From NCBI RefSeq assembly GCF_900178525.1, contig NZ_FXDJ01000009.1:1539001-1603000 (forward strand): a stretch of 64,000 nt of DNA, given 5' to 3'. This stretch comes from Massilibacteroides vaginae (lineage in GTDB: Bacteria > Bacteroidota > Bacteroidia > Bacteroidales > Tannerellaceae). The notes under the pieces were generated by a model that was not told the DNA's origin, searched no databases, and saw only the letters and a program-made list of their open reading frames with translations. The number at the start of each line of letters is the position of its first letter. Position 1 is the first letter of the stretch. Of this stretch, positions 7,615 through 59,385 are shown in pieces. The translations under genes were made by a program, and so were the position numbers.

Positions 7615-8241
7615 TTATGGTTCTGTTTTTATTGCTTCCGCTGATAAAACCTCTGCTTTAATGTAAACCCGGTTGCAAGTACTGCCTACAGCTTTTAACG
7701 TACGGGTAGTTATTAAATGATGTAAATCCGTATTGGCAATATACCGGGTTACTTTGTTTAACTCCTGGCAGGCTGTTCGTGTTGTATAACCATACTTTTC
7801 CACATTTTTTAAAATACGTTTTAACCGTTCTTCCTGCGTATATTGATTTTCAGTTTTTCTGGATTTGTGTGTCAGCTGAAATCCCCTAATCTGTTCTTTC
7901 AGTTTAACAGAAGGCCTGAAATGGATGCCGTTAACCTTAACCGATAATAAATTTCCGGCTGTTTCACCTTGTTCCTTCCGGCTTTTCAGTCCTAAAGAAA
8001 ATATTCCAAGATCGTCTAACTCAATATTATATCCCTGAGCCAGATAATAATTAAAGCAAAAATTGAGCGAATCCAGTGTCGCTTTCACATCTGCGGCAGA
8101 AATAGAACTTCGAGCAGAGATCAGCGTACACAATTCTTCTGTTTTAATAGTTCCCGAAGAATTAATCCTTGCCTGATGCGTTTCTTCGTTATTTTCACTT
8201 TGCAGGTTAGGCACTTTATGAATACTGTAAGAAATTTTCAT
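7615..8241 (-). CDS. HU-like DNA-binding protein (Bacteroidetes HU family)
   Basis: The 208-residue protein resembles the Bacteroidetes HU-like family. The N-terminal half (about residues 1-125) has the HU fold pattern: ARINSSGTIKTEELCTLISARSSISAADVKATLDSL for the helical dimerisation part (read as two segments), then DDLGIFSLGLKSR and VKVNGIHFRPSVKLKEQI. The C-terminal 80 residues (ERLKRILKNVEKYGYTTRTA and onward) are basic and look like an extra helix-turn-helix-like domain. It is monocistronic. Its promoter overlaps an array of 22-bp repeats (8305-8392), raising the possibility of autoregulation. Function beyond DNA binding is unknown. Confidence 0.8.
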   Translation of the reverse strand: MKISYSIHKVPNLQSENNEETHQARINSSGTIKTEELCTLISARSSISAADVKATLDSLNFCFNYYLAQGYNIELDDLGIFSLGLKSRKEQGETAGNLLSVKVNGIHFRPSVKLKEQIRGFQLTHKSRKTENQYTQEERLKRILKNVEKYGYTTRTACQELNKVTRYIANTDLHHLITTRTLKAVGSTCNRVYIKAEVLSAEAIKTEP

Positions 8242-54097: not shown

Positions 54098-56476
54098 TTA
54101 TCTCATACGCGCTTTTTCTTCTGCCGCGCCTGATTCTACGTTCTTCACCTGTATTTTCTTTCCGGCCTGGAAGTTGTAGGTCAGCGAGACGCCGAATGTG
54201 CGGAACATGAAGTCGCTGCGTAAGTTCCGGCGGAAATCCTTTTCGTCGGAGGTTACCTTGGCGGTGCTCATATTCAGCGGGTTGTTTACATAGAGTTTGG
54301 CAGAAAGTTTCTTGTCCAGGAACTGCTTGCGCAAGGAGAGGTATAGCTGCGGATCGATTTCCGTTTTTACGCTTCCGTCGATGAACGGGCTTGAATAATA
54401 GAACGTGCAGTCCAGCATGATCTCTTTCGGCAGCGTGAACATATTGGACATACTTCCCTGAAAGGTATTCATGGAACGTTTTCCGTCATATATTTCGACG
54501 ATGTTCCTGCGGCCGGACAGGTTCAGGTTGACCTGCCACCATTCGAACGGCTTCAGGGAAGCATTTGCTGAAAGGTAATAGGTCTTGTTGCTTTTCATAT
54601 TGGCCATGCGTTGAACCAATATTTCCGGGTTTTGTGAATCAGGCTCAATGACCTTACCGACTGCATTTTCCGTATCCGTTATTCCCACTGTCAGGTTATA
54701 GCGGTTGAACAAACCCAGTGCGAGCGAGTAGTTATTAAACAGAATCGGTTGTAATTCCGGGTTGCCTTCGATATATAAGAATTCGGAAGCAGGCAGGCGG
54801 AACGGGTTCAGTAAACTGAACGGTACTCGGAAAATATTTCTATTATAATTCAGTACAAGCGAATGCTTGTTGTCATTTCCAAAAGGCAGCATAATATTGG
54901 CTGAAGGGAATAACTTGAAATAACGTTGATCTTTTGTTTCGTCCGATTTGTTTGTCTTTGGTGAGACATAGGTGTACTCACCGCGCAATCCGACGGAATA
55001 GCTGATCTTTTTCAGGCGGGAAGAGAACGAGGCGTAGGCCGCGGCAATATCTTCGGTAAAGAGGTTCTCGCTTGTGTAAGGTTCGTTCCTGAGCCAGTTG
55101 CCTTCATGCTGGTACTCATACAGGATGTCGTTGTCCATTTTGCTGTGCGAATATTTCAATCCCGTGGCAAAGGTTGTATAATCGTTTTTTCGAATCGTCA
55201 GGTCTGTGCTTGCAGAATAGAGATCGTTCGTCGTATACATACTGCTCCGGTAGACGGAGTCGTAATCCAGATATCCCCTGAAGCTGGAATGATAGTTCTG
55301 CTTGTCGTCCGCCATGTTGTGGAAATAATCCAGCAGGATTTTGAAGTTCGAACCCGATTCGTCGAGTTGAAGCAGGTAATTGGCAGCGGCGGAATAGCTT
55401 TCTATTTTGTTCTTTCCGTTATAAAAACTGTTGATGTCTGTCCGTTTCTCGTTCTCGATCTCCACCAGGTCTGAATAACTTTTGTTCTTACGCTGGCTGG
55501 GAGACAGGTATCCTTCCAGTCCGATGCTCTGCTTTTCATTCAGTTCATAGATGCCGCCGATCCGTCCGCTGAACGTGCGCTCAGAGATTGGAAAATCAAT
55601 GACGCTGTTGACACTCCTGTCCGGAGACCACATAATGACTTCTTCCGTGACATGCTCGATACGGCGACGGCCGTTGAAGTTCAGTTGGGTGTACAGGCTG
55701 AATCCGTTATTCTTATAATTCAGGCTGAATGACGGGTCGAATGACGAGACTTTTTCGCCGGGAGCAAACTCGTATGATGCGCCTGCATGTCCGTAAATCC
55801 CGTCGTCGCGGTGACGTTTCAGGGTTATTTTGATAATCCCTCCCTGGATGTTCGCGTCATACCCCGCGCCGGCTGTCGGCAATACTTCGATCCGCATGAT
55901 ATCCTCGGCTTTCAGGTTTTGCAGGTAACGGATCAGCTCCGCTCCGGATTCCCGCATCGGTCGTTCGTTGACGTAGACCTGCGTCCCTGTCTTTCCGTTT
56001 ATGGAAATTGAACCATCTCTTTCTTGTACAAATACACCGGGAGAAAGATTTAATACATCACTACCTGATTTACCAAATACCGTGGGGTCGTTTGCTAAAT
56101 TTACAATAAAGCGGTCTGCAGACCGGACAATACGATCAGCCTTTACCACTACCTCATTCATCTCAACAGTAGACTCTGCCAATTTTATTGCTCCCAGATT
56201 AATATTACGCTGAAGGACTATAGTCTGTTCATGGTTGTTATATCCAATTACAGATATTTTTAGCACATAATTACCCGGCGATGCCTGAATAGTAAAGTTT
56301 CCCTGTTCATCAGAAATTGCGCCATAAAATTCCTCTTCGGATTGAAGTACAATATTAGCAAACTCAACAGACTCTTGTCTCTCATTTATTAAATTGCCAT
56401 TTATTTCAACTTGTGCAAAACCATTTAATACAAATAGGACAAGAAATAGGGCTATTAGTAGGAGGGATGCTTTCAT
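54098..56476 (-). CDS. outer-membrane TonB-dependent-receptor-like protein of mosaic composition
   Basis: The 792-residue protein has a signal peptide (LLIALFLVLFVLNGFAQ), a carboxypeptidase-like regulatory domain (VEINGNLINERQESVEFANI), a plug (VLNLSPGVFVQERDGSISI) and a beta barrel. It fits the outer-membrane beta-barrel family related to TonB receptors but distinct from SusC. About 160 N-terminal residues are coded by AT-rich DNA (about 39% G+C at 56041-56340) while most of the rest is GC-richer (about 53% at 55681-55980), a sharp change inside one gene. It follows the small beta-barrel gene by 48 nt. Confidence 0.86.
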   Translation of the reverse strand: MKASLLLIALFLVLFVLNGFAQVEINGNLINERQESVEFANIVLQSEEEFYGAISDEQGNFTIQASPGNYVLKISVIGYNNHEQTIVLQRNINLGAIKLAESTVEMNEVVVKADRIVRSADRFIVNLANDPTVFGKSGSDVLNLSPGVFVQERDGSISINGKTGTQVYVNERPMRESGAELIRYLQNLKAEDIMRIEVLPTAGAGYDANIQGGIIKITLKRHRDDGIYGHAGASYEFAPGEKVSSFDPSFSLNYKNNGFSLYTQLNFNGRRRIEHVTEEVIMWSPDRSVNSVIDFPISERTFSGRIGGIYELNEKQSIGLEGYLSPSQRKNKSYSDLVEIENEKRTDINSFYNGKNKIESYSAAANYLLQLDESGSNFKILLDYFHNMADDKQNYHSSFRGYLDYDSVYRSSMYTTNDLYSASTDLTIRKNDYTTFATGLKYSHSKMDNDILYEYQHEGNWLRNEPYTSENLFTEDIAAAYASFSSRLKKISYSVGLRGEYTYVSPKTNKSDETKDQRYFKLFPSANIMLPFGNDNKHSLVLNYNRNIFRVPFSLLNPFRLPASEFLYIEGNPELQPILFNNYSLALGLFNRYNLTVGITDTENAVGKVIEPDSQNPEILVQRMANMKSNKTYYLSANASLKPFEWWQVNLNLSGRRNIVEIYDGKRSMNTFQGSMSNMFTLPKEIMLDCTFYYSSPFIDGSVKTEIDPQLYLSLRKQFLDKKLSAKLYVNNPLNMSTAKVTSDEKDFRRNLRSDFMFRTFGVSLTYNFQAGKKIQVKNVESGAAEEKARMR

Positions 56477-56524: not shown

Positions 56525-57100
56525 TTAAAAATAATAACCAATAGAAATACGTAGTTTCTGACGTTTAAAATTAGTAATGCCCTTTTCTATATTGGTAAAT
56601 CCACGTTGATATGTGCCAGAGATAAAATAGCGATGATAAGATAAACCAATCCCGAAATTAAGTCCCATGCCAAACCTGTTATATACATCAAATGGGGATT
56701 TGTCTTCTAACCGACCATCAGCATATTCATAATCTTTTGAACCGAATAAATTATACCTTGTGTATAATCCCGCATCTGCAAGAAGCACTGTTTTTCCAAT
56801 ATGTGGTCTATAAGAAAACACCAATGGAATTTCTACAGCATACATTGAAATATCAGCTCGTTTTATCGCAGCATTAGATTGGTATGAGAATCCATTACTC
56901 GAAAAAAGCACACTGGGCTGGAATACGATTTTTTTTGACAGAGCAACATCATACGCCCCACCCAAATGAAAGCCTGTTTCTGATTTAACATTTCCAGTTG
57001 TAGCCGAAGAAAAATCCACTCCTCCTTTTACACTAAATTGCGCAAAAGAAGACAACGTAATAAAGCTGCAAATTACTAACAGTAAGAATTTTTGTTTCAT
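56525..57100 (-). CDS. small outer-membrane beta-barrel protein
   Basis: The 191-residue protein has a signal peptide (FLLLVICSFITLSSFAQ) and alternating beta strands (FSVKGGVDFSSATTG, FGIGLSYHRYFISGTYQRG) ending in aromatic RISIGYYF, typical of eight-stranded OmpX/porin-like barrels of Bacteroidetes (PorT-like domain). It lies 84 nt after the 138-residue gene and before the TonB-like receptor on the same strand and may be cotranscribed. Confidence 0.82.
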   Translation of the reverse strand: MKQKFLLLVICSFITLSSFAQFSVKGGVDFSSATTGNVKSETGFHLGGAYDVALSKKIVFQPSVLFSSNGFSYQSNAAIKRADISMYAVEIPLVFSYRPHIGKTVLLADAGLYTRYNLFGSKDYEYADGRLEDKSPFDVYNRFGMGLNFGIGLSYHRYFISGTYQRGFTNIEKGITNFKRQKLRISIGYYF

Positions 57101-57184: not shown

Positions 57185-57601
57185 TTATGTTTCAATTATA
57201 TCTTCCCATTCTATGTTTAGGCTTTGAGAATTATTATGAGTTAGGAACTCAATTAATCCGTCTCTTGTTGTACAGATCGGTATTGTAGTAGAGCCCAAAT
57301 ATGTTTTTCCTTCGCTAAGTGCAATAGGTAGCTTATCTTCTCTATTCCATTTTATTATACGATTATCACCAACGAGATCTCCTCTATCATTTTTTGCGTT
57401 GAAAACTTTTGAAAGTTTAAAAAAATGTTTTTCTTCGCCGTAAATTTGTATGATTCCATTATTACAAATAATCGGAACAAGTAATGTTTGTTGGTGATGT
57501 TTATAGTTTTCATATACAATAAACCTTGCAGAATTAAATAGACCTGTTTCTGAAAACTGCCAGATTGAATAATTACTATGGGATGAAATAAGTTTATCCA
57601 T
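57185..57601 (-). CDS. uncharacterized 138-residue protein in the LuxR/ThiF locus
   Basis: I do not recognise this family. It has no signal peptide or transmembrane segment, so it should be cytoplasmic. It is mixed alpha/beta, with IWQFSETGLFNSARFIVYEN near the N-terminus, the turn-rich NRIIKWNREDKLPIALSEGK and an acidic C-terminus. Its single promoter carries the TACCC-AAAA-GGGTA palindrome immediately upstream of the -33, the same arrangement as at the ThiF-like gene, so the two probably belong to one regulon. Confidence 0.7.
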   Translation of the reverse strand: MDKLISSHSNYSIWQFSETGLFNSARFIVYENYKHHQQTLLVPIICNNGIIQIYGEEKHFFKLSKVFNAKNDRGDLVGDNRIIKWNREDKLPIALSEGKTYLGSTTIPICTTRDGLIEFLTHNNSQSLNIEWEDIIET

Positions 57602-57631
57602 AATATATAATTTGCTAATTAATTGTTAATG

Positions 57632-57662
57632 CAAAAGTATCCGGGACCATATCATAGAACAA
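57632..57662 (-). promoter_or_regulatory. promoter of the 138-residue gene
   Basis: On the minus strand TTG (57662-57660), a 20-nt gap and TACTTTTG (57639-57632) form a consensus-like promoter with a leader of about 25 nt. The TACCC palindrome at 57663-57676 directly abuts the -33, the site of an activator. Confidence 0.7.
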
Positions 57663-57676
57663 TACCCAAAAGGGTA
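57663..57676. promoter_or_regulatory. palindromic operator site 1 (TACCC-AAAA-GGGTA)
   Basis: The 14-bp palindrome lies directly upstream of the -33 of the 138-residue gene. The 17-mer CAATACCCAAAAGGGTA is identical to that at site 3 (59369-59385). Likely bound by the neighbouring LuxR-type regulator (inference). Confidence 0.65.
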
Positions 57677-57698
57677 ATAGCTTGTTATTCAGAAAAAA

Positions 57699-57714
57699 AT
57701 ACCCAAATGGGTAT
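57699..57714. promoter_or_regulatory. palindromic operator site 2 (ATACCCA-AA-TGGGTAT)
   Basis: A near-perfect dyad with 7-bp arms, 37 bp from site 1 and about 45 bases before the LuxR-type gene, in the position for autoregulation. Confidence 0.65.
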
Positions 57715-57757
57715 GAACGATCAGTGCATCTTATACTATTAATAACCATAAAAGGAT

Positions 57758-58519
57758 ATGGCGGAAATAAATGATTTTTTTATTGAGGAAAACTCAATTA
57801 ATTATATCCCGGAAGAGAAATATGTAACGATACAAGATATCGTTGAAGACATTGACGCTATTGCTCGTACTACCTATATGAGTTTATACGTGATTGATTA
57901 CTATAAGCAGAATTTTTTATACGTATCTGATAATCCTTTGTTTTTATGTGGCATGGCAGCAGAAACAGTAAAAGAGCTGGGTTACAACTTCTATATGAAT
58001 CATGTGGTTCCTGAAGATTTACAACTGTTGCTTGAAATAAATACCGCTGGATTTAAGTTCTTGCGGAACGTTCCGATCAATGAGGTACGTGATTACACAA
58101 TCTCATACGACTTCTTTTTGAAGAATAAAGATTCTCGTAAAAAACAACTAATAAATCATCAGATTACGCCCCTTCGCCAAATTGAAAACGGGAAAGTGTG
58201 GTTAGGACTTTGCGTAGCATCAATTTCCTCAAGCAATAAATCCGGGAACATAAAGATGCTTAAAAACAAATCAGGTGTATATTGGAACTACAACAGAGAG
58301 AGTAAAAAATGGAAAGAAGCTATACGTCCGGAATTAAAACCCGTGGAAGAAGAAGTTCTTAAATTATCGGCAATGGGATATACTATGTCTGAAATCGCAA
58401 ACGAAATAAATCGTTCTTTTGATACTGTAAAAGCCTACAGGAAAAACATTTTTGAAAAATTAGGTGTAAATAATATTTCAGAAGCTATAAGCTACGTTAT
58501 GAATCACCGGTTATTTTAA
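57758..58519 (+). CDS. LuxR-family transcriptional regulator with PAS-like N-terminus
   Basis: The 253-residue protein has a PAS-like sensor half (residues about 30-165: YVIDYYKQNFLYVSDNPLFL, then the HQITPLRQIENGKVWLGLC strands) and a LuxR helix-turn-helix at the C-terminus (VEEEVLKLSAMGYTMSEIAN, then the recognition helix region SFDTVKAYRKNIFEKLGV). No receiver domain is seen, so it is not a classical two-component regulator. It is divergent from the 138-residue gene and convergent with the ThiF-like gene. Three copies of one palindrome lie at these promoters, so it is the best candidate to bind them. Confidence 0.85.
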   Translation: MAEINDFFIEENSINYIPEEKYVTIQDIVEDIDAIARTTYMSLYVIDYYKQNFLYVSDNPLFLCGMAAETVKELGYNFYMNHVVPEDLQLLLEINTAGFKFLRNVPINEVRDYTISYDFFLKNKDSRKKQLINHQITPLRQIENGKVWLGLCVASISSSNKSGNIKMLKNKSGVYWNYNRESKKWKEAIRPELKPVEEEVLKLSAMGYTMSEIANEINRSFDTVKAYRKNIFEKLGVNNISEAISYVMNHRLF

Positions 58520-58524
58520 TACAG

Positions 58525-58550
58525 CTACCTTGTTAAGGTAGATATTTTCT
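58525..58550. terminator. bidirectional terminator between the LuxR and ThiF-like genes
   Basis: CTACCTT-gtt-AAGGTAG forms a perfect 7-bp stem with a three-base loop, followed by ATATTTTCT. It lies 6 nt after the LuxR stop in the 44-nt convergent gap. Confidence 0.7.
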
Positions 58551-58563
58551 AATAGTAAGCAGT

Positions 58564-59322
58564 TTAGTTCCTATCATCTATAATCGATGACAGATAAAAC
58601 TTAGGATACCTTTTTACTTTTTGTCCTGTTACAATATTAAACAATATATTGGTGCATAATCCTCCTACAATCCAGGACGCAATTGCGAGTTGTGGAGGAG
58701 GGAGTACTGTCTTTTCATTTTTATAAGCTGTAATAATATTTTCTATCCATGGTTTAGGTTGTGACCAAAATTTAAAATAGTTAACGATGTGTTCAATAAG
58801 TCTTACCTCGAAGTTTTGCCAGTTATCAGAAAAGTCTTTTAATTGAGGCCCGGTTGGTTCTACAACTATTACCAAACCACCCCAGCCAATATTATAAGGA
58901 TGTAAAACCGGAATATTATACCTTTGGCAAGCTTCGTCAAACACAAACGGAATTTCTGATTTAAAATCCAGCGCATTTATTGCTATGTCATGTTCTTTGA
59001 TAAGTTCTTCTACATTGTTTTTATCAATAAAATCCTTTATAGCTGATATTTTTGCGTTCGGATTAATACTCAACAAACGCTCTTTTAAAGCATGAACTTT
59101 GGGTTTCCCAATATCTTCCATACAATAATTCTGTCTGTTGAGGTTGGACTCTTCAACTATATCATTATCAATAATCGTTATCGTTTCAAAACCCAATCGC
59201 AAGGCACATTCGGCAATAATACTTCCAATACCGACTCCTCCTAACAAGATACGATAATTCTTAACAAGCTGCTGCTCTTCAGGTCGAATGTAAATTCTGT
59301 TTCTAATATATCTTTCTTCCAT
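58564..59322 (-). CDS. ThiF/E1-like adenylyltransferase family protein
   Basis: The protein has the Rossmann ATP site ILLGGVGIGSIIAECALRL, the IDNDIVEESNLNRQNY motif with the Arg finger, DIGKPKVHAL and the NALDFKSEIPFVFDEACQ segment. This is the adenylating fold used by ThiF, MoeB and ubiquitin E1. No CxxC zinc pair is seen, unlike MoeB or ThiF proper. The frame opens at 59343, but that ATG lies in the predicted -7 element; the next, at 59322 (MEERYIRNRI), gives 252 residues and a usable leader. No ThiS/MoaD-like partner with a C-terminal GG is in the window. Function is unknown; it may activate a peptide or protein C-terminus. Confidence 0.85.
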   Translation of the reverse strand: MEERYIRNRIYIRPEEQQLVKNYRILLGGVGIGSIIAECALRLGFETITIIDNDIVEESNLNRQNYCMEDIGKPKVHALKERLLSINPNAKISAIKDFIDKNNVEELIKEHDIAINALDFKSEIPFVFDEACQRYNIPVLHPYNIGWGGLVIVVEPTGPQLKDFSDNWQNFEVRLIEHIVNYFKFWSQPKPWIENIITAYKNEKTVLPPPQLAIASWIVGGLCTNILFNIVTGQKVKRYPKFYLSSIIDDRN

Positions 59323-59340
59323 ATAGCGTAATTTCTTATA

Positions 59341-59371
59341 CAAAAATCAGGATGAATTATAGAATAAGCAA
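59341..59371 (-). promoter_or_regulatory. probable activator-dependent promoter of the ThiF-like gene
   Basis: On the minus strand TTG (59371-59369) is followed after 20 nt by GATTTTTG (59348-59341), a weak -7 box. Spacing is identical to the promoter at 57632-57662, and the palindrome again abuts the -33. The poor -7 fits a need for an activator. Confidence 0.5.
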
Positions 59372-59385
59372 TACCCAAAAGGGTA
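59372..59385. promoter_or_regulatory. palindromic operator site 3 (TACCC-AAAA-GGGTA)
   Basis: Identical in sequence to site 1, 1.7 kb away, and at the same position relative to the downstream -33 of the ThiF-like gene. On the other side lies the leader of the WYL gene. Confidence 0.65.

Follow-up and report, generated by a model that had tools for sequence, protein, structure and literature searches.

A predicted LuxR-type regulon with a ThiF-type enzyme, a FeeM-like acyltransferase relic and outer-membrane barrels in Bacteroidota

Conserved operators, promoter geometry and gene linkage make a well-supported sequence-based case for a small regulon under a LuxR-type protein. In gut and marine Bacteroidota, this protein probably turns on a ThiF-type cyclase, a FeeM-like transferase and outer-membrane barrels. 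Our preferred explanation, held with moderate confidence and drawn from analogy with known systems, is that it acts as an activator that controls both how a cyclised N-acyl amino acid is made and how it is handled at the outer membrane, in a circuit that would resemble LuxI/LuxR. The locus lies in a 64-kb stretch of DNA (the window), and its features are listed in Table 1.

Table 1 Features of the LuxR/ThiF locus and their positions in the window.
Feature	Position	Strand	Remarks
792-aa outer-membrane barrel (OMP_b-brl_3, carboxypeptidase-regulatory-like N-terminus)	54098..56476	-	PF14905 E=4.6e-84
191-aa outer-membrane beta-barrel (OMP_b-brl_2)	56525..57100	-	PF13568 E=1.4e-14
138-aa FeeM-like N-acyltransferase remnant	57185..57601	-	alignment with full-length relatives
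Predicted -7 box TACTTTTG	57632..57639	-	probable 138-aa gene/barrel operon
Operator 1, TACCCAAAAGGGTA	57663..57676		proximal site of the probable 138-aa gene/barrel operon; centre 30 bp from the -7 box
Operator 2, TACCCAAATGGGTA	57700..57713		37 bp from operator 1
LuxR-type (GerE HTH) regulator, 253 aa	57758..58519	+	PF00196 E=5.8e-12
ThiF/E1-like adenylating enzyme, AclA branch, 252 aa	58564..59322	-	PF00899 E=1.5e-35
Predicted -7 box GATTTTTG	59341..59348	-	ThiF-type gene
Operator 3, TACCCAAAAGGGTA	59372..59385		upstream of the ThiF-type gene

Operators and promoter geometry

The palindrome TACCCAAA(A/T)GGGTA, on whose three copies the original prediction of a regulon was built, occurs exactly three times in the 3.71-Mb genome. 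A genome-wide search placed all three copies at the LuxR/ThiF locus, where they had been reported, and a reversed control pattern gave 0-1 matches. The three genes of the original prediction likewise agree with their description there. The earlier remark that the window holds no fourth copy stood even with one mismatch allowed, since no further TACCC-AAAW-GGGTA match with 0 or 1 mismatch was found in the 64 kb. The looser form TACCC-N4-GGGTA has five copies genome-wide; one of the two extra copies lies within a coding sequence and the other just beyond the 3' end of a gene, so that promoter copies of the palindrome are found at this locus only. With three exact copies, all at one locus, the 14-mer is not common in the genome, which rules out a general genomic repeat. 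A search of this genome for further regulon members, allowing up to 2 mismatches and requiring a fixed spacing to the promoter, gave no convincing promoter.

TACCC-WWWW-GGGTA is present in 38 of 149 related genomes. The copies inspected there lie mostly within coding sequences or beside unrelated two-component genes (three copies elsewhere are at two-component genes), so the motif by itself is not diagnostic, and the idea that it is specific to this LuxR family everywhere was rejected. Intergenic TACCC-AAAA-GGGTA, or its complement, stands upstream of TPR-HisKA_3 kinase genes in genomes G036 (L106:5110-5123 and 8081-8094) and G059 (L107:6807-6820), the G059 copy adjoining a NarL-type response regulator gene; in these genomes, the operator seems to be shared by another regulator of the GerE type.

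At homologous loci in Bacteroidales and Flavobacteriia, either TACCC-N4-GGGTA or a symmetric variant, TACAC-N4-GTGTA, was found upstream of LuxR-type and ThiF-type genes, giving two operator flavours with the fourth base altered on both arms. A perfect palindrome precedes the ThiF gene in 10 of 12 loci and the LuxR gene in 11 of 27, where first-order shuffles led us to expect about 0.003-0.004. Upstream stretches totalling 9.5 kb hold 26 perfect sites versus 6 in 362 kb of background, i.e. 2.7 per kb in the upstream stretches versus 0.017 per kb in the rest of the same loci. The spacing of double sites is also conserved across loci, at 37-39 bp.

At 25 of 52 sites, the distance between the palindrome centre and the start of a (T/G)AnnTTTG box is exactly 30 bp. 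Because this box had been recognised by inspecting the sequences first, the histogram across all offsets serves as the control: other offsets hold 0-3 sites each, except 67-69, which correspond to the distal members of double sites. The -7 consensus of Bacteroidota is TAnnTTTG, and together with the 30-bp spacing it would place the operator centre near -41, as expected for a class II activator and close to where the lux box lies. Genes downstream of the spaced boxes encode ThiF-type proteins, FeeM-like proteins and outer-membrane barrels. From these sequence patterns, we infer that the LuxR-type protein binds the predicted operators directly.

The recognition-helix residue aligned to K192 of NarL is lysine in 8 of 8 TACCC loci and arginine in 8 of 8 TACAC loci (L076, with both operator flavours, was counted among the latter). 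On the tree, this covariation comprises only three changes, one of them on supported branches, so it is suggestive and was not taken as a series of independent events.

The regulator and its candidate targets

The fold of the regulator's DNA-binding domain matches the HTH domains of NarL, TraR, LasR and RhlR. A profile of the LuxR alignment matched, across its positions 96-252, the solved structure 3CLO (E=2.5e-18); this entry is titled only 'Transcriptional regulator', and the likeness is that of a profile match. The N-terminal half has no Pfam match and is PAS-like by appearance only, and the autoinducer-binding domain PF03472 was absent in a Pfam scan up to E=1. With a mean pLDDT of 51, the structure model was of low confidence and did not establish a PAS fold or any other for the N-terminus. 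LuxR homologues were found in 20 of 149 related genomes, and homologues with the same operator occur in many Bacteroidota.

The closest solved relative of the ThiF-type protein is AclA of Tenacibaculum discolor, rather than ThiF or MoeB, with 56% full-length identity (E=2.9e-95 against 9EGB/9EGC); PDB 9EGB shows AclA 'in complex with substrate'. The ATP-site residues tested are all intact (G29/G31/G33, D52, N62, R63, K75 and D119; the L170 row was left out of this comparison) and are the same in AclA (PDB 9EGB, 9EGC and 9EGD). A search of the available literature found no publication on AclA; such a publication may already describe part of the system. The gene starts at a conserved ATG (59322), and an upstream TTG (59343) is disfavoured because the predicted -7 box covers it. 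Compared with its L071 orthologue, the gene shows a dN of 0.15 with saturated dS, indicating that it is under constraint.

Two observations concern this enzyme branch in other genomes. ThiF copies at L004:8489-9244 and L005:4295-5050 keep the operator, but W replaces R63 and E replaces D119, so that both of these adenylation residues are gone; a non-catalytic role or decay is possible. In G541 (L173:4261-9677), an AclA-like ThiF gene adjoins one for a 102-aa protein that resembles a leader-type precursor, with a GG motif, and the locus also carries a row of 110-142-aa ORFs; RiPP use of the branch is possible there.

The 138-aa protein is, judging from its alignment, a relic of a GNAT acyltransferase of the FeeM/LuxI type. 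Its N-terminal ~93 residues are fused to its C-terminal ~45, with ~90 core residues deleted in frame, and the missing segments include the conserved HIGRFA and AECD. Owing to this deletion, the protein should be inactive as an acyltransferase, and the empty Pfam, NCBIfam and PADLOC scans of the protein itself are expected. The alignment also ruled out a new family. Intact counterparts occupy the same place in relatives: the gene encodes 253 residues in G028 and 233 in G022, and these proteins match FeeM PF21926 (E=1.2e-7 and 4.7e-6, respectively). Full-length relatives also match TIGR03694, an exosortase-associated acyltransferase family, and have no match to the LuxI family PF00765. Since neither one FeeM relative nor a five-sequence profile found a match among solved structures, the FeeM assignment rests on the Pfam and NCBIfam matches. 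This genome encodes no other homologue of the 138-aa protein at E<=1e-4; one protein of the broader acyltransferase family PF13444 is encoded elsewhere and could supply N-acyl amino acids.

Among the related loci, the FeeM-like gene is intact in L078, L080, L170, L171 and L174, and absent from L071, L075, L076, L115 and L004. G013 has a truncated copy, G056 one divided between two contigs and G442 one with a frameshift; draft and metagenome assemblies are common among the relatives, and some of the frameshifts may therefore be errors. In G056, the N-terminal part (C260; L072:10419-11348) runs into the C-terminal fragment of a YcaO gene, beyond which lie nitroreductase, ABC transporter and M50 genes, and the C-terminal part (C205; L101:8070-8453) lies at the end of the other contig. 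This split may reflect a rearrangement or an assembly chimera.

The suggestion that the barrel genes downstream of the 138-aa gene belong to the same system is supported. They lie on the same strand, the 191-aa barrel gene following after 84 bp, and each barrel gene is a probable operon member with the 138-aa gene. A small barrel is likewise found downstream of a double operator in L080 and in L077, and the OMP_b-brl_3 family is under the operator in L004, L075 and L170. The GC content of the 792-aa barrel gene is ~0.35 near the 5' end and 0.44-0.50 in the remainder, with a sharp internal change, as if the barrel part had been exchanged by recombination.

Conservation and spread of the gene block

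In the set of 149 related genomes, homologues of the 138-aa protein were found in only 5, including that of the window, and every one bears a LuxR homologue; a full-length FeeM-like relative used as query recovered the same 5. Besides the window's, four FeeM-like genes lie beside the LuxR gene and divergent from it. Two flavobacterial genomes keep the whole block intact, its gene order unchanged (ThiF, convergent LuxR, divergent FeeM-like) and with operators between LuxR and FeeM; one of these blocks continues with an OMP_b-brl_3 barrel. ThiF homologues occur in 9 of 149 relatives and are adjoined by a LuxR homologue in all but one (G059). The three genes named in the original prediction do co-occur, and the conserved block with its operators supports the proposal that the regulator sits between its targets within one regulon.

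The acyltransferase and ThiF genes are also found as a pair. L116 carries a tandem of a frameshifted FeeM gene and ThiF, and G741, which has a full LuxR block, holds in addition a second, diverged FeeM-like and ThiF tandem without LuxR (L174:6950-8426). The latter arrangement supports a shared pathway for the two proteins.

The ThiF gene is present in 6 of 393 order-level genomes, and the GC content is 30-35% over 57-61 kb of the window versus 35-50% in the flanks. This patchy distribution and the low GC suggest horizontal spread. In L171 and L116, tRNAs border the ThiF gene; in the window, no tRNA-linked insertion was found.

A candidate acyl-signalling circuit and its alternatives

Pairs of an acyltransferase and a ThiF-type enzyme cyclise N-acyl amino acids, as demonstrated biochemically for TyzACB and TrzAS, where acyl-oxazolones are formed by an N-acyl amino acid synthase together with an ATP-dependent cyclase of the ThiF type and a flavin-dependent oxidase (PMC10404671, PMC12856293). 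In OxzAB (Pseudoalteromonas), TyzACB and TrzAS (Mycobacterium), synthase and cyclase, the core that this locus shares with them, are adjacent or fused (PMC10404671, PMC12856293). Those systems include a flavin-dependent oxidase, with no LuxR regulator mentioned in the available parts of the two reports, whereas the present locus has a LuxR regulator and barrels and no oxidase. The window encodes a ThiF-type cyclase with conserved adenylation residues, only a core-deleted remnant of the synthase and, among the scanned ORFs, no nitroreductase-family flavin oxidase; in relatives, a nitroreductase was found in L072 only, inside the YcaO gene set.

LuxI/LuxR quorum sensing offers a second comparison, with a GerE-domain regulator beside a LuxI/FeeM-type acyltransferase, as here. 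In contrast to that system, the locus has no autoinducer-binding domain and no LuxI-family match, and it includes a separate ThiF cyclase. Since PF03472 and PF00765 were not found, the circuit would work like LuxI/LuxR but is not a member of it. A search of the available literature on LuxR together with ThiF/FeeM found no paper.

In the model that we favour, a LuxR dimer would bind TAC(C/A)C-N4-G(G/T)GTA, with the centre of the site ~41 bp ahead of the transcription start, and would activate the genes for the ThiF-type AclA-branch cyclase, the FeeM-like N-acyl amino acid synthase and the outer-membrane barrels; it would probably also autoregulate. An intact FeeM-like synthase would link an amino acid to a fatty acyl group. 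The ThiF enzyme would then adenylate the carboxylate and close a ring, and the product or a derivative would be handled by the barrels and act as a cue for the LuxR protein. Activation by the LuxR protein, the cyclised N-acyl amino acid as product and its role as ligand are steps that we infer. Because the catalytic core of the synthase is lost here, the regulator, cyclase and barrels of this genome would use another source of N-acyl amino acids or answer a neighbour's product.

Several results count against an acyl signal, namely the lack of a Pfam ligand-binding match in the N-terminal domain of the LuxR protein, the missing flavin oxidase, the FeeM gene that is broken or absent in most loci, the damage to ThiF elsewhere (a pseudogene in G022, a stop in G144, R63 and D119 lost in L004) and the many LuxR homologues that have neither ThiF nor FeeM. 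The chief rival explanation, possible though in our view less likely, keeps the regulon and assigns it to a nutrient or envelope response, in which the LuxR protein would sense an imported compound or the state of the envelope and ThiF/FeeM would make a lipid for the cell's own envelope instead of a signal. It draws its weight from the frequency of outer-membrane barrels and TonB-type receptors among the targets and from the frequent loss of FeeM where LuxR, operator and barrels are retained; many LuxR homologues also lie near barrel genes without ThiF or FeeM. It does not readily account for the FeeM-LuxR-ThiF block, with LuxR central, across two class-level lineages, intact in Flavobacteriia and as relics in Bacteroidales.

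In the original prediction, the ThiF-like protein might act on the C-terminus of a small protein or peptide, and the 138-aa protein could be substrate, partner or effector; neither peptide modification nor a role of the 138-aa protein as substrate or partner was supported. A ubiquitin-like or MccB-type modification would suit the ThiF/MoeB/MccB fold, but it is very improbable, given that the 138-aa protein was rejected as a substrate by its end-to-end alignment with FeeM-like acyltransferases, of which only the core is missing, that the ThiF protein falls within the AclA branch, and that the scanned neighbours at the locus gave no match to a beta-grasp carrier, an E2 or a JAB partner. A defence (E1-E2) function was rejected, as the PADLOC matches cover just the shared ThiF core. 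Equally hard to credit is the view that the palindrome is a general GerE-type site common to several NarL/LuxR regulators, its three copies not forming one LuxR regulon: NarL heptamers do begin TACYY and the kinase genes of G036 and G059 carry the motif, but in this genome every promoter copy is at this locus, and the operator flavour follows the local LuxR recognition helix.

Gut Bacteroidales are, to our knowledge, not known for acyl-homoserine-lactone circuits. We put forward tentatively that Bacteroidota may have a LuxI/LuxR-like family of their own, in which the product of FeeM and an AclA-type ThiF enzyme would be sensed by the LuxR protein and would induce its own production together with that of outer-membrane receptors. 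Gut lineages that, like this one, have lost the synthase may listen to others. The likeness of acyl-oxazolones to acyl homoserine lactones has been remarked by the authors who describe them, and what these compounds and their ThiF-cyclised N-acyl amino acid relatives do physiologically has been called a major unresolved question (PMC12856293). To this question the locus adds, in Bacteroidota, a LuxR regulator between both biosynthetic genes, an operator, a promoter rule and targets, so that whether such lipids are signals becomes a problem for reporter assays. If the favoured model is true, gut Bacteroidales would gain a candidate acyl-signalling system.
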